Positions 5,105 through 53,481 of a DNA stretch of 64,000 nt are shown one piece after another. This stretch comes from Rhodothermales bacterium (GTDB taxonomy: Bacteria > Bacteroidota > Rhodothermia > Rhodothermales > VXPQ01). A program made the position numbers and the translations under genes. The notes under the pieces are model-generated. The model had not been told where the DNA came from. It worked only from the letters and a program-made list of their open reading frames with translations, and did not search any database. Positions within the stretch are counted from its first letter, which is position 1. Every line of letters begins with the position of its first letter. The stretch is taken from the NCBI GenBank assembly GCA_951812335.1, contig OX638293.1, forward strand, positions 886,501 to 950,500. The letters are read 5' to 3'.

Positions 5105-7615
5105 ATGTCCGGCGTCATCGGACACATTCTGATCCTTTTCGGCTTTGTAGTCTGCGGGCTTGCGGGCTACGCCTATCTTCAGGCCGCGCGCACCGGCAAT
5201 CCGGAATGGCGGTGGATCGGACGCGCTGCATGGGGCGCCATGACCGCAAGCCTTGCGGTAGCTGCAGCGGTCCTGATGGTCCTGCTTCTGACGCACCAGT
5301 TCCAGTACTCCTACGTATATCAGCAAACGTCCCGTTCGCTGCCGACCCACTTTCTGGTTTCCTCTTTCTGGGCCGGTCAGGAAGGATCGTTTCTTCTCTG
5401 GATCCTTCTGATGAGTGTTCTCGGGCTGGTCCTGATGCGCACGAAACGCACATGGGAAGCCCCGGTCATGACGATCGTAGCAGGGTCGCAGTGGTTCCTT
5501 ATTTCCATGATCGCGGGGTTGCAACTGGGGCCGCTGCGCATAGGCGCTTCGCCCTTCGCCACGCTGGCCGAGAAATTCCCGGACGCCCCCATGCTGCAAA
5601 TTCCCGGGTTCATCCCGGCGGACGGGTCCGGACTCAACGACCTGCTCCAGAATTACTGGATGGTCATTCACCCCCCTACGCTTTTCCTGGGGTTCACCCT
5701 GATGGCCGTCCCGTTCGCCTTCGCCGTCGCGGCGCTATGGAAACGCCGGTATACCGAGTGGATTCCGCAGGCGCTGCCCTGGGCGCTCGTCGCTACCGCG
5801 GTGCTGGGCGTGGGCATCGCCATGGGCGGCTACTGGGCGTACGAAACCCTCAATTTTGGCGGCTACTGGGCGTGGGACCCCGTGGAAAATTCCTCGCTCG
5901 TGCCCTGGCTTACGGGGATCGCCGCCGTACACGCCATGATCATCCGGAAGAGAAGCGGAAGAGGGCACAAGTCCACCTTCCTGTTCTGCATTCTTTCGTA
6001 CATGCTGGTCATTTACTCGACCTTCCTGACGCGGAGCGGGATTCTTGGCGACGTGTCGGTGCATTCCTTCGTCGATCTGGGTATGATGAACCAGCTCCTC
6101 GTCTGGATCCTGGGCATGGCCGCCGTCGGGTTCGGGCTTTTCGCGTACCGTTACCGGGAGCTTCCGGCGCCCGACCGCGAACCCAACCTGCTCTCGCGCG
6201 AATTCATGACGTTTTGCGGGGCGATGCTGCTGGCCTGTCTGGCGGCGGTCATCATCGTGGGCACCAGTTCTCCGATTCTGGGTAAACTGTTCCGCGAAGC
6301 GCCCTCCACCGTGCCGATCGCCTTCTACAACAAGTGGACGATCCCGATTTCCATCCTGCTTGTGTTCCTGGCGGGTCTGGGGCAGCTTTTCTGGTGGCAC
6401 AGAATGGACATCGAGCAGGTGAACCGGGTGCTCATCAAGCCGATTGCGGGGGCCGTGGTCAGTACGGTTGCCGTGCTCATCTTTACGCCGTTCGTGGCGA
6501 CGACCGTCCAGCGGCCCGACCTTTCGGCAGCGGCTGCGGCGCAGGATGTTACCCAGGCGGGATTCGGGTTCGGCAGCGTCGGATTCCTCGAAGGCTTTCA
6601 AAATTTCGGGCAGATCTACGGAACGGGCATTCTCCTGCTGCTCCTCGTGTTTATGGCGTTCTTCGCCCTCTACGGGAACGGCATGGTGCTCTGGAGGATC
6701 GGGCGGGGCAATCCGCGCATGGCGGGCGGCGCTACGGCGCATGTAGGGTTCGCCATTATGGTCCTCGCCATTGTGGCGTCGAGCGGGTTCAGCAAGCCGA
6801 TCGGGGCCGTACGCGGCGCGCCGCTCGCCGAGGGCCGCGACAGTTTTATCATCGAGCGCGGCCAGACGCGCATGATCGGCGGGTACCGCGTGACCTATTC
6901 GGGGCGCGAACGCACGGCGCGCAACCGCCCGGTGTACGTGCTGGATTTCGTCGATCCGAACGGGCGGGAATTCACGGTCAGGCCGGTCGTGTACAAAAGC
7001 GCTCAGGCCCAGTGGATCCAGCACCCCGACCACGAAATGTACCCGGACAAGGACATCTTCGTGGCGGTGTCGCCGAGCGTGATGCAGGAGGATGTCCGGG
7101 CGTCCGACGACGATCCTGTGGCGCAGCAGGGCGAACTCACGATTTCTCGCGGCGATTCCATGGTGGTGGGCGACGACGCCTTCGCCATACAGTTCGTCAA
7201 TTACCAGACGGACCTGGCCGATCTGCCCGATTCCACGGAGATCGGCGTGGCGGCCCTGCTGGACGTGACCCATCTCGAAACCGGCGAAACCCGCCGTTTG
7301 ACGCCGGTCTACCTGATCATGCAGGACCGTTCGCAGCAATACATTCAGAATCGCGTCAGCGATTGGGGCCTGACGGTCACGTTTACGGGGATGAACGTGG
7401 ATAACGGCTCCATCCGCCTCTTCCTGGAAGGCGTTGCCGTAGCCCCCAACGACTGGCTCGTCGTGCAGGCCTACGAAAAGCCGTTCATCAACTTCCTCTG
7501 GTTCGGGTTTCTGCTTCTTACCTGTGGCTTCGGGTTCGCGGCGTACCGGCGCTATGCGGACAACCGCCATAGTGCGCAGCGCGCAGAACGCACAGGATAC
7601 TCCGATCAGGGGTAG
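5105..7615 (+). CDS. ccmF: Cytochrome c-type biogenesis protein CcmF (heme lyase subunit)
   Basis: An integral membrane protein of 836 residues of the CcmF/NrfE family, which hands heme to apocytochrome c on the outer face of the inner membrane. About 14 hydrophobic segments are visible. The heme-handling WWD signature lies near residue 250 (GGYWAWDPVENSSLVPWL), and conserved histidines occur in VIHPPTLFLG and in the loop after HSF. A large soluble periplasmic domain (about 575-790) precedes the last membrane helix. The C-terminus is odd: the final codons (GYSDQG) come from the left end of a repeat element starting at 7595. No ccmE, ccmG or ccmH genes are adjacent. Confidence 0.95.
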   Translation: MSGVIGHILILFGFVVCGLAGYAYLQAARTGNPEWRWIGRAAWGAMTASLAVAAAVLMVLLLTHQFQYSYVYQQTSRSLPTHFLVSSFWAGQEGSFLLWILLMSVLGLVLMRTKRTWEAPVMTIVAGSQWFLISMIAGLQLGPLRIGASPFATLAEKFPDAPMLQIPGFIPADGSGLNDLLQNYWMVIHPPTLFLGFTLMAVPFAFAVAALWKRRYTEWIPQALPWALVATAVLGVGIAMGGYWAYETLNFGGYWAWDPVENSSLVPWLTGIAAVHAMIIRKRSGRGHKSTFLFCILSYMLVIYSTFLTRSGILGDVSVHSFVDLGMMNQLLVWILGMAAVGFGLFAYRYRELPAPDREPNLLSREFMTFCGAMLLACLAAVIIVGTSSPILGKLFREAPSTVPIAFYNKWTIPISILLVFLAGLGQLFWWHRMDIEQVNRVLIKPIAGAVVSTVAVLIFTPFVATTVQRPDLSAAAAAQDVTQAGFGFGSVGFLEGFQNFGQIYGTGILLLLLVFMAFFALYGNGMVLWRIGRGNPRMAGGATAHVGFAIMVLAIVASSGFSKPIGAVRGAPLAEGRDSFIIERGQTRMIGGYRVTYSGRERTARNRPVYVLDFVDPNGREFTVRPVVYKSAQAQWIQHPDHEMYPDKDIFVAVSPSVMQEDVRASDDDPVAQQGELTISRGDSMVVGDDAFAIQFVNYQTDLADLPDSTEIGVAALLDVTHLETGETRRLTPVYLIMQDRSQQYIQNRVSDWGLTVTFTGMNVDNGSIRLFLEGVAVAPNDWLVVQAYEKPFINFLWFGFLLLTCGFGFAAYRRYADNRHSAQRAERTGYSDQG

Positions 7616-7767
7616 TGTCAGGAGTGGTGCGGGCGCGGAGCGCCCTTCGGGAGTCTGAGAGGGGCACGCTGGCCGCGTCATTTAATTATGTGGAGGACGG
7701 GCCACACTGCTTCGTCATTTCTTGCCAGCGCGCGCCTCTGAGCTTTGCGGACGTAATCAGAGCATCT
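7595..7767. repeat. Palindromic intergenic element, copy B
   Basis: The left end GGATACTCCGAT lies inside the 3' end of ccmF and supplies its last sense codons. The right end ATCAGAGCATCT stops just before the metal-permease stop codon. It keeps the internal inverted repeat (GAGGGGCACGCTGGC paired imperfectly with GCCAGCGCGCGCCTC), so it may act as a bidirectional terminator between these convergent genes. Confidence 0.8.
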
Positions 7768-33976: not shown

Positions 33977-34020
33977 GGATACGCTGATCAAAACCGCTTC
34001 GCTCAGCGCTCCGCAATCGG
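33977..34020. repeat. Palindromic element, one-ended relic (copy C)
   Basis: GGATACGCTGATCAAAACCG followed by CTTCGCTCAGCGC matches the left end of the family at 44357 and 45312. The right end is missing; the ABC exporter stop codon follows at 34063. Confidence 0.65.
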
Positions 34021-34062
34021 GAACCGCCTCTTATCTCCGTTCCCAATCTTCTCCTAATCCCC

Positions 34063-41403: not shown

Positions 41404-41473
41404 GGATGCGCTGACCAAAACCGCTTCGCTTGGCGCTTTTAAACCATGTCCTGATTCCATCGCTGGAATCAGG
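41404..41473. repeat. Spacer between the duplicates: relic of the palindromic element plus a perfect hairpin
   Basis: GGATGCGCTGACCAAAACCG (41404-41423) is a degenerate left end of the dispersed element. At 41450-41473 CCTGATTCCA-TCGC-TGGAATCAGG forms a perfect 10-bp stem with a 4-base loop. Confidence 0.6.
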
Positions 41474-41524
41474 GGAAGCACTGCGAATTCACGGCGTCGC
41501 CGAGCCGAAAAAAGAAGGGCGGGT

Positions 41525-44356: not shown

Positions 44357-44476
44357 AAGGATACTCTGATCAAGACCGCTTCGCTCAGCATGTCACGTTC
44401 GCAAGTACAGGGCGTCATTCCTTGCCAGCGCCCCCTCTCAGCCTCTGAGCTTTGTGGACGTAATCAGAGTATCCTT
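44357..44476. repeat. Palindromic intergenic element, copy E (shortest complete)
   Basis: 120 bp with perfect 14-bp terminal inverted repeats, AAGGATACTCTGAT and ATCAGAGTATCCTT. The interior has TCGCTCAGC and a TCATTCCTTGCCAGCGCCCC stretch found in the other copies. It lies between recO and the lexA promoter. Confidence 0.88.
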
Positions 44477-44511
44477 GCACTCCGCGTTCGGAAGATTTTT
44501 TGACGTTTCTC

Positions 44512-44556
44512 TTGACGTTGCAAAGAAACAATCATATACTGTACGTTATATGTACA
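44512..44556 (+). promoter_or_regulatory. lexA promoter with putative LexA operator
   Basis: A consensus-like promoter: TTGACG (44512-44517), 17-bp spacer, TATACT (44535-44540). Immediately after, TGTAC-N7-GTACA (44540-44556) is a perfect inverted repeat overlapping the -10 end and the transcription start, where an autoregulatory SOS box should lie. The box itself is unproven for this lineage. Confidence 0.65.
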
Positions 44557-44657
44557 AGGCGCCGGGTATGGTATCGGGTATCGCACCGAATAATTGCTCC
44601 GCTCGCGGCGCCTGTACAGTCCTCGTGGTGTCATAAAAACAGGCGCGTTCAACCGTC

Positions 44658-45311
44658 ATGAGTCGTAAAAAACTGACATCGAAGCAATACGAATTTCTCC
44701 GGTATATCTCGGAATACGTGCGTGCCCACCGGGTATGGCCCACCTACCGTCAGATCGCCGCTCATTTCGGGTTCCGGTCGCCCAACAGCGTCACCCAGAA
44801 CCTGGATGCCCTCTGGAAGAAGGAATTTCTCACGCGCGGTAACCGGGGATACCGCCTCGTCAACGAGGACGATTTTCTGACGAGTGCAGTGGGTATTCCT
44901 GTGCGCGGCATTATATCGGCAGGACAGCTGCAGGAAGCCGTCGATGCCGATTTGGGAACCATTACGCTGGAGACGCTCTTCCCTAATCTTGATCGCATTT
45001 TTGCGATCCGCGTATCGGGGCAATCGATGATCGGCGCCGACATCCGTGACGGCGATTATGTGCTGCTGATAGACGACGATATTCCCAACGGGGGCATCGG
45101 CGCCATTCTCTACAATGGCGAGACGTCTTTGAAGCGGGTGTACTACGATGGGGACGGGTTGCGCCTCGAACCGGCCAACGAGGAGTACGAGGATATCCGC
45201 ATCAAGCCGGATATTTTCGAGGAAGTCCGGGTGCTGGGACGATACGTAGGGCATGTGAACCATACCGGCATCTACCATACCCATACGTACGGCCCGCCTC
45301 GCAATTATTAA
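44658..45311 (+). CDS. lexA: SOS repressor LexA
   Basis: 217 residues. N-terminal winged helix (TSKQYEFLRYISEYVRAHRV, recognition helix around FRSPNSVTQNLDALWKK) and C-terminal S24 self-cleavage domain. The scissile Ala-Gly is A88-G89 (IISAGQLQ); the catalytic dyad is S123 (GQSM) and K159 (TSLKR). Upon RecA* stimulation it cleaves itself and derepresses SOS genes. A strong promoter with a palindrome lies upstream, and repeat-element copies flank the gene on both sides. Confidence 0.95.
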   Translation: MSRKKLTSKQYEFLRYISEYVRAHRVWPTYRQIAAHFGFRSPNSVTQNLDALWKKEFLTRGNRGYRLVNEDDFLTSAVGIPVRGIISAGQLQEAVDADLGTITLETLFPNLDRIFAIRVSGQSMIGADIRDGDYVLLIDDDIPNGGIGAILYNGETSLKRVYYDGDGLRLEPANEEYEDIRIKPDIFEEVRVLGRYVGHVNHTGIYHTHTYGPPRNY

Positions 45312-45569
45312 GGGACACTCTGATCAAAACCACTTCGCTCAGCGCGTCACTTTCGCCCGTAAAGGATGTCATGATTGCATGGTTGAAATCGGCAAAAAAC
45401 ACCGCGGATTCGGGTCGTCGAGGGCGTGACGCGCCCTTCGGGAGGCTGCGAGGGGTGCGCTGGCTGTGTCATTCCTCATTATGTGGGGCCTGCCACATTG
45501 CTTCGTCATTCCTTGCCAGCGCACCCCTCGCAAGCCTCTGAGATTTGAGGACTTAATCAGAGTATCCCC
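45312..45569. repeat. Palindromic intergenic element, copy F (fullest)
   Basis: 258 bp. Ends GGGACACTCTGAT and ATCAGAGTATCCC (one mismatch). Inside, CGAGGGGTGCGCTGGC (45449-45464) pairs perfectly with GCCAGCGCACCCCTCG (45515-45530), and within that loop ATGTGG (45481-45486) pairs with CCACAT (45493-45498). A transcript would fold into a long nested hairpin. It fills the gap between lexA and hyuA completely. Confidence 0.88.
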
Positions 45570-45572
45570 GGC

Positions 45573-47564
45573 ATGACGGAACGCATCGGGATCGACACGG
45601 GCGGCACGTTCACGGATTTCGTGTATCTGAAGGGCGGGACGCCCGTCATTCGCAAAACGGCCACTACGCCGGATGACCAAAGCCGCGCTGTGGAAGAAGG
45701 CGTACAGCTGCTCGGGGCTGGCGAAACTGCGGCCATTGCACACGGCACCACCACGGCCACGAATGCGCTCCTCGAACATCGCGGCGCGCGCTGCGCCCTT
45801 GTGACGACCAGAGGTTTTCGCGACGTCCTGGCGATCGGGCGCCAGAACCGGCCCGCCCTGTATGCGCTTTCCCAGCGCCGCCCGCCCCCGCTCGTGCCGG
45901 AGGACCTGCGTTTCGAGGTCACGGAGCGGGTGGGTGCCGACGGCTCGATCCTGACTCCTCTTGACGAACACGAAGTGGCCGAGCTGGGCGAAAGCCTGCA
46001 ACGCCTGGACGTGGCCGGCGTGGCCATCGTGTTTCTGTTCTCGTTCCTGTATCCGGAACATGAACGGAAAGCGGCGGGGATTCTGAAGGAATACCTTCCC
46101 GATGCGCGGTTCTCCCTGAGTGCGGATATTCTGCCGGAATACCGGGAGTACGAACGTACGGCTGCAACCGTCGTGAATGTCTATGTGCAACCCATCGTGG
46201 CGCGGTACCTGGACCGGCTCGAACGAGCCGTGGCGCCGAGGCGAGTACGCATCATGCAATCGAACGGTGGCGTTATCGGGACGAAACAGGCGGCGCGCCG
46301 TCCCGCGCGCCTTGTGCTCAGCGGGCCGGCCGGCGGGGTCGTGGGCGCCTTCCGGCTTGCCGGAACCGCCCTCGACGAGAAGGCTCCGAAGATTCTCACG
46401 CTCGACATGGGGGGCACCAGTACGGACGTGGCGTTGTGTCCCGGCGAAATACCACGCACTGCCGAAAGCGACATTGCGGGATTGCCGCTGCACCTTCCTT
46501 CCGTCGATATCCATACGGTGGGAGCCGGTGGGGGGAGTATTGCCCATGCCGATACGGCCGGGGCGCTCCGTGTCGGCCCCGCCAGCGCCGGGGCCGTACC
46601 GGGTCCGGCGTGCTACGGGCAGGGCGGAGATGCGCCTACCGTCACGGACGCGAATGTGACGCTGGGCCGCATCCTGCCCGATCGGTTTCTGGGGGGCGAC
46701 TTTGCCCTCGACGCCGACGCTGCGCGGGCCGCCGTAGAAAAACTGGGCCGTCCGTTGGGCCTTTCTCTCCGGGAAACGGCTCTTGGCGTCGTCCGGATCG
46801 CCAATGCGTCGATGGAGCGCGCCTTGCGCCGCGTATCCGTCGAGCGCGGGTACGATCCGAAGGATTATGTGCTGGTCCCTTTCGGGGGCGCCGGACCGCT
46901 GCATGCCTGCGACCTGGCGGACGCGCTCTCGATCCGCCGCATTCTGCTTCCTCCGCAGCCTGGTGTACTGAGTGCGTTGGGTCTGTTGATGGCGGACATT
47001 GTGTACGATACGTCCGTTTCCGCCCCCGACGACGAAACCTGCCTCGAAGCCCTCTATGCGCAGGAAACCGAACGAGTCCTGAACGTCTTTGCCGGGGAGG
47101 ACTGCGAGCGTCCCGTCATCGAAACCCTTGCGGATATGCGTTACCGGGGGCAGAGTTACGAATTGACCGTGCCGATGAACCCCGCGAGCCCCGAACGTGC
47201 CCGGGAGCGTTTCCACGAGCGGCACGCCCGCCGATACGGGTACGCCATGCAGGACGTCATCGTGGAGATCGTGACGCTGCGCGTGCGTGGAACGGCAGCC
47301 GGGGCCGAGGTTTTTTTGCCGCGGGATACGGATCGGGCCGGCGTGTCGGAGACATCCGAAGCGGCGCAGATCGGGGAGACGCCTGTCGTACTGGATAGCG
47401 GCCGGGAGGTCATGGCGGCGCTTTACGACCGCGACCGGTTGCGCTTGGGTCATGCGTTTGACGGTCCCGCTGTGGTGGCCCAGTACGATGCGACCGTTTT
47501 CGTTCCCTCCTCGTGGCATGTCGAGGTGGGCGCCTGGCGTACCCTGCATTTCTCCGGAATGTGA
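45573..47564 (+). CDS. hyuA: Hydantoinase/oxoprolinase family protein, subunit A
   Basis: 663 residues of the HyuA/5-oxoprolinase N-terminal type, an ATP-dependent amidohydrolase of hydantoins, 5-oxoproline or related rings. Motifs: GIDTGGTFTDFVYL (nucleotide loop), AHGTTTATNALLEHRGA, LTLDMGGTSTDVALCPGE, TVGAGGGSIAHAD and VPFGGAGPLHACDLA. It overlaps hyuB by one base (TGATG), so the two subunits are co-translated. The exact substrate cannot be read from sequence. Confidence 0.93.
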   Translation: MTERIGIDTGGTFTDFVYLKGGTPVIRKTATTPDDQSRAVEEGVQLLGAGETAAIAHGTTTATNALLEHRGARCALVTTRGFRDVLAIGRQNRPALYALSQRRPPPLVPEDLRFEVTERVGADGSILTPLDEHEVAELGESLQRLDVAGVAIVFLFSFLYPEHERKAAGILKEYLPDARFSLSADILPEYREYERTAATVVNVYVQPIVARYLDRLERAVAPRRVRIMQSNGGVIGTKQAARRPARLVLSGPAGGVVGAFRLAGTALDEKAPKILTLDMGGTSTDVALCPGEIPRTAESDIAGLPLHLPSVDIHTVGAGGGSIAHADTAGALRVGPASAGAVPGPACYGQGGDAPTVTDANVTLGRILPDRFLGGDFALDADAARAAVEKLGRPLGLSLRETALGVVRIANASMERALRRVSVERGYDPKDYVLVPFGGAGPLHACDLADALSIRRILLPPQPGVLSALGLLMADIVYDTSVSAPDDETCLEALYAQETERVLNVFAGEDCERPVIETLADMRYRGQSYELTVPMNPASPERARERFHERHARRYGYAMQDVIVEIVTLRVRGTAAGAEVFLPRDTDRAGVSETSEAAQIGETPVVLDSGREVMAALYDRDRLRLGHAFDGPAVVAQYDATVFVPSSWHVEVGAWRTLHFSGM

Positions 47565-53408: not shown

Positions 53409-53481
53409 GGGGCTATAGCTCAGTTGGTAGAGCGCTGCAATCGCACTGCAGAGGTCAGCGGTTCGACTCCGCTTAGCTCCA
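53409..53481 (+). tRNA. tRNA-Ala, anticodon CGC
   Basis: Complete cloverleaf of 73 nt: acceptor GGGGCTA paired with TAGCTCC (one G-T), D arm GCTCAGTTGGTAGAGC, anticodon stem CTGCA/TGCAG with loop ATCGCAC (anticodon CGC, codon GCG), T arm AGCGGTTCGACTCCGCT, discriminator A. The 3' CCA is not encoded. Confidence 0.95.

Follow-up and report, generated by a model that had tools for sequence, protein, structure and literature searches.

The window that we analysed is a 64,000-nucleotide stretch (C1:886501-950500) of the host genome, G000, which is a single contig of 2.69 Mb. In this window, a 255-bp repeat (45313-45567) stands between lexA and a hydantoinase-like gene, and an internally deleted, 116-bp copy of the same repeat (44359-44474) lies upstream of lexA. 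A profile search (nhmmer) with the 254-bp unit of the family matched this window at exactly six positions, 1736-1900, 7622-7766, 33977-34022, 41404-41502, 44359-44474 and 45313-45567, all on the + strand, and all the copies that the original prediction had described, four with both ends and two relics with a single end, were thus confirmed at their positions. The 45313-45567 copy matched the profile over its full length and is bounded by a left terminal inverted repeat, GGACACTCTGAT (45313-45324, + strand), and a right one, GGATACTCTGAT (45556-45567, - strand). The copy upstream of lexA has perfect 12-bp ends, and the 14-bp perfect ends that had been claimed for it (AAGGATACTCTGAT/ATCAGAGTATCCTT) are present but include the flanking AA/TT; it is flanked by TAAG and CCGG and so shows no target duplication. 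The remaining places hold an internally deleted copy of 165 bp with TAAC/TAAC target duplication flanks (1736-1900), a decayed copy that has lost most of its left half and provides the stop codon for an upstream ORF ending at 7615 (7595-7767), a one-ended relic of the left ~46 bp (33977-34022) and a second, decayed relic of the left ~110 bp (41404-41502). The end motif occurred in the window far more often than expected by chance, with 11 matches (at most 2 mismatches) against 2.9 expected, a count that none of 100 shuffles equalled.

Comparison of these sites with related species provided direct evidence of insertion. Exact empty sites corresponding to the 45313-45567 copy were found in four relatives: in G003 and G005 the sequence ..TTAT runs directly into CCGGCATGACGG, and in G001 and G002 likewise, with CGAGCATGACGG. 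These exact empty sites fix the boundaries of the element. In the four relatives that lack the copy, the TGA stop of lexA overlaps the start codon (ATG) of the next gene, whereas in G000 and in G004 (a Rhodothermales MAG, OX638295.1) the insertion supplies lexA with a new TAA stop. Across 45290-45580, the insertion parts lexA from the next gene, and lexA loses its final codons and stop (..SYPA in G003), which are replaced by ..NY and TAA. Both the full-length copy and the copy upstream of lexA are identical in G004; at the site of the latter, G003 and G005 carry a different short sequence, as does G004 at the site of the 1736-1900 copy. The decayed copy at 7595-7767 is shared with G004, in diverged form.

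The family extends well beyond the window, and its copies are not restricted to orthologous positions, so that the refutation proposed with the original prediction (no other copies, or orthologous ones alone) failed. The end motif GGATACTCTGATNAAGAC had 359 matches in the host genome and its reversed pattern had none. Scanning the profile over 800 kb of G000 yielded 94 matches, 38 of them full length, that occupy 1.9% of the sequence; extrapolated to 2.69 Mb, this corresponds to ~315 copies and fragments, of which ~128 would be full length. The unit of ~254 bp carries no gene, and its 12-bp terminal inverted repeats, GGATACTCTGAT at both ends, were retained in 97% of the end pairs of 58 copies. 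All six species of the genus that we examined contain the family (94-350 end matches each), 108 other Rhodothermales genomes yielded only two stray single end matches, and no matches were found in plasmids, phages or viral contigs; among the genomes searched, the family is therefore confined to one genus. Many of the draft contigs of G001, G002, G003 and G005 start or stop within or beside a copy, and the family probably breaks these assemblies, making the copy counts there lower bounds. One copy was found inserted within another. Additionally, two identical copies, each nested in another copy of the family, lie at ~563735 and ~565495 of the G000 contig (L025 and L026); they are inverted and ~1.8 kb apart, and thus form an inverted duplication.

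Turnover of these copies between species was high. Among full-length G000 copies, 19 of the 25 testable were missing at the same site in G004 (at a few of the 19, the G004 site is not cleanly empty but retains a short remnant), and all 12 testable were missing at the same site in G003. G001 and G002, at 95% identity to each other, had none of four testable copies in common. The largest class of overlap at empty sites was 4 bp, and in 64 full-length copies the two 4-bp flanks agreed at 183 of 256 bases, relative to 120 +/- 6.6 after shuffling (maximum 142 in 1000 shuffles), with a perfect 4-bp duplication in only 22 of the 64. The targets are AT-rich with the consensus TNNA (TTAA, TATA and TAAA), and CATG and CTAG also occur. 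The exact empty sites in relatives prove the 4-bp target duplication, and the element has inserted recently at many differing sites in those species of the genus that allowed a comparison.

An insertion sequence with matching ends is present in the genus. G004 contains several broken IS5-family transposase genes (NCBIfam NF033581; Pfam DDE_Tnp_1 and DUF772), and the ends of this insertion sequence are the 12-bp ends of the MITE, GGATACTCTGAT. In the fragment whose ends are best preserved (L139:1175-1840), the boundaries are GGATACTCTGATTTAATCC, preceded by TTTAT, and GGATACTCTGATCAATCCGG, with TTAT and TTAA as flanks, and two other copies (L131 and L135) have kept the right end. The host genome has only a decayed IS5 right end, near the contig end (L144). 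Of the mobilising transposase with matching ends that the original prediction proposed to look for, every copy detected was broken; none of the six genomes of the genus (assemblies 87-97% complete) yielded an intact one, though the MITE copies look recent. More distant IS5 relatives occur in another family: G049 has the ends GGATAGTCTGATTAAGTC/GGAAGGTCTGATCAATCC with a TATA duplication, and G029 has one intact transposase of 328 amino acids. The interior of the MITE shows no resemblance to the IS5-family insertion sequence past the ends, indicating that the MITE is not a simple deletion derivative of it.

From the identical ends and the equal target size, we infer that an IS5-family transposase with the same ends moved the MITE. 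Taken as a whole, the evidence leaves little doubt that this is a gene-less MITE with 12-bp inverted ends and a 4-bp target duplication that has spread recently, very probably moved in trans by an IS5-family transposase, and the non-autonomous MITE proposed in the original prediction is upheld by the hundreds of dispersed copies, the 4-bp duplications, the exact empty sites and the IS5-family element with the same ends. According to this model, the DDE transposase of that insertion sequence would act on the MITE in trans; insertion duplicates a 4-bp AT-rich target (TNNA), and copies are tolerated in intergenic DNA and at narrow sites just behind stop codons. Of the source itself, broken copies would survive in G004 and a scrap in the host genome. 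The other type named in that proposal was REP. Palindromes of the REP/BIME type, mobilised by a RAYT (Y1, IS200/IS605-like) transposase, would account for elements that are palindromic, lie outside genes and have a hairpin close to either end. However, the genome has no match to Y1_Tnp (PF01797), the elements have inverted terminal repeats and 4-bp target duplications, and the matching ends belong to a DDE transposase, so that we consider a REP-type origin extremely unlikely.

The original prediction also held that the copies might act as terminators or give structured RNA, and we therefore weighed whether they are kept for function as RNA structures at gene 3' ends (terminators or mRNA stabilisers). 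The consensus fold is predicted to be very stable (-124 kcal/mol) and comprises a stem at the ends together with two long hairpins. In the 45313-45567 copy, the consensus fold and pair counts place hairpin H1 at 45342-45434 (arms 45342-45357 and 45419-45434) and hairpin H2 at 45444-45536 (arms 45444-45464 and 45515-45536); nested in the H2 loop is a small hairpin. The GCGAGGGGTGCGCTGGC/GCCAGCGCACCCCTCGC hairpin reported earlier for this copy (45448-45464 with 45515-45531) is real, as is the second hairpin in its loop, a small GTGG..CCAC; an extra hairpin, GCGCGTCAC/GTGACGCGC (45342-45350 with 45426-45434), had been overlooked. As RNAalifold on the full alignment gave scattered structure, we instead counted the pairs of the consensus fold: 91.7% of the named pairs were retained over 58 copies, and two-sided (compensatory) changes were observed in 18 of 55 pairs, above both shuffled and slid controls. 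These changes, the stability of the fold and the near-identity of the copies common to G000 and G004 would favour a maintained RNA, as would the position of stop-facing ends, 25 of 55 of which lie at most 10 bp from a stop codon, relative to ~10% of random TWWA intergenic sites. However, insertion alone can truncate a gene so that a stop ends up close to the element, and closeness to stop codons is predicted without function by gene-end trimming, by a TAA stop serving as target and by selection against hitting the next gene. Moreover, in the 800 kb of G000 sampled (86% coding, with genes called by a simple in-house script with which small errors are possible), 39 of the 74 classified clusters lay between tandem genes, 26 (35%) between divergent and 8 between convergent ones, and 1 was intragenic. 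The claim that all copies lie in or against gene 3' ends therefore holds in the window but fails genome-wide, where 26 of 74 clusters lie between divergent genes and only 8 between convergent ones.

The manner in which the helices decay also argues against a 3'-end RNA role. On the tree, A-C and G-U events numbered 33 and 38 in H1 and 36 and 21 in H2, and mismatches were common; strand-specific selection on an RNA was rejected, as G-U was no commoner than A-C. Because pairs decay to A-C as frequently as to G-U, the fold most likely derives from the source lineages and is not kept in each copy as RNA. A terminator scan of the copies found none, with no T-run after either hairpin, and Rfam at the gathering score matched no element in the window, only a tRNA at 53409. 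The majority of copies are, in addition, missing from sister species. The terminator and structured-RNA suggestions are thus not sustained, and we regard retention of the copies for such a function as improbable. Under the preferred explanation, MITE spread by an IS5-family transposase, the two-hairpin fold would stem from source elements and would not be upheld copy by copy.

The copies common to G000 and G004 pose a separate question. Six common full-length copies were identical at 1500 of 1509 bases (99.4%), as compared to 85-96% identity with their nearest paralogues, ~91-92% in their flanks, and 91.7% and 87.4% in the coding and other noncoding DNA, respectively, of the aligned region. 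An internally deleted common copy was identical at 116 of 116 bases, a seventh common G004 copy that is not full length in G000 at 241 of 250, and old common fragments showed ordinary divergence. Three copies, at 642152-642394 and 742489-742737 of the G000 contig and at 45313-45567 of the window, are 100% identical in G004 with flanks at ~73-96%. One explanation, to which we assign an even chance, is that the common intact copies passed recently between G000 and G004 by homologous recombination in short tracts, after insertion in one of them. Flank divergence around the common copies climbed with distance from the element (2.9% at 0-9 bp, 5.7% at 10-24, 7.1% at 25-49 and 10.3% at 50-99), as compared to 6.7, 11.9, 11.8 and 11.0% in the same bins around empty sites, which favours such passage. 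Gene flow is suggested by ten stretches of 300 bp or more that are identical between G000 and G004, within 224 kb aligned at 91%, and the fast copy turnover between other species points the same way. Against it, identity stops 1-13 bp from the element at several loci, which is short for recombination tracts, and the comparison comprises no more than seven loci, of which two are separated by 1 kb.

Recent passage is compatible with the MITE explanation and competes with constraint or element-centred exchange. It is possible, though we think it rather doubtful, that intact same-site copies are kept near-identical over the element alone while the neighbouring DNA, coding included, is ~9% diverged; if true, this would imply element-centred overwriting or passage (for instance, if breaks made by the transposase were repaired from incoming DNA) or, for these particular copies, constraint stronger than that on proteins. 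An assembly effect may also be a source of the identity. If near-identity against diverged flanks were to hold genome-wide, it would raise the question of how small repeats move from one bacterial species to another.

The family is new but belongs to a familiar class, being an expansion of IS5-type MITEs. Its interest lies in a clean expansion that can be traced over sister species by exact empty sites, with the likely helper element caught decaying, and in two nearly complete single-contig genomes from which gain rates and inter-species sharing become measurable. The Correia elements of Neisseria have a TA target duplication, and promoter, IHF and RNase III roles have been shown for them. They resemble the present family as high-copy MITEs adjoining genes (>120 copies in N. 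gonorrhoeae; review PMC10969869) but have unrelated ends. The IS5-related MITEs of Porphyromonas gingivalis (BrickBuilt, MITE239/293, MITEPgRS/464 and MITE700), which make up ~1% of the genome and whose terminal repeats are identical or nearly so to those of resident IS5-family elements (PMC4596501), are likewise non-coding with ends that match IS5-family elements. Their end sequence is different, their target duplications are irregular, and full-length IS5 elements reside in the genome; in the Rhodothermales family, only broken IS5 copies were seen and the copy number is much higher. MITECca01 of Cardinium is also a single MITE family, whose 169 copies occupy 3.5% of the chromosome and are mainly intergenic (PMC9769881), but its parent is an intact IS982-family element, whereas the putative parent here is of the IS5 family and broken in all genomes examined.

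A further counterpart is the G004 IS5-family insertion sequence itself, which has the same 12-bp ends and AT-rich 4-bp flanks and differs in having a (broken) transposase gene and an interior unrelated to the MITE. A fused relic in G001 (L142, C10:13343) joins MITE interior to an IS5 transposase fragment. A second IS5-type element of the genus (NF033580, L132/L136) was rejected as the mobiliser because its ends, GGGCSTGTTAACACTA, differ; this element (L132, L134 and L136) has two overlapping transposase frames and is present in G000, G001 and G002. At the contig end of G000, a separate palindrome of ~40 bp, TAAGGATAGTTCC...GGAACTATCCTTA (L144:1790-1850), adjoins the IS5 remnant and is possibly another small inverted-repeat element.
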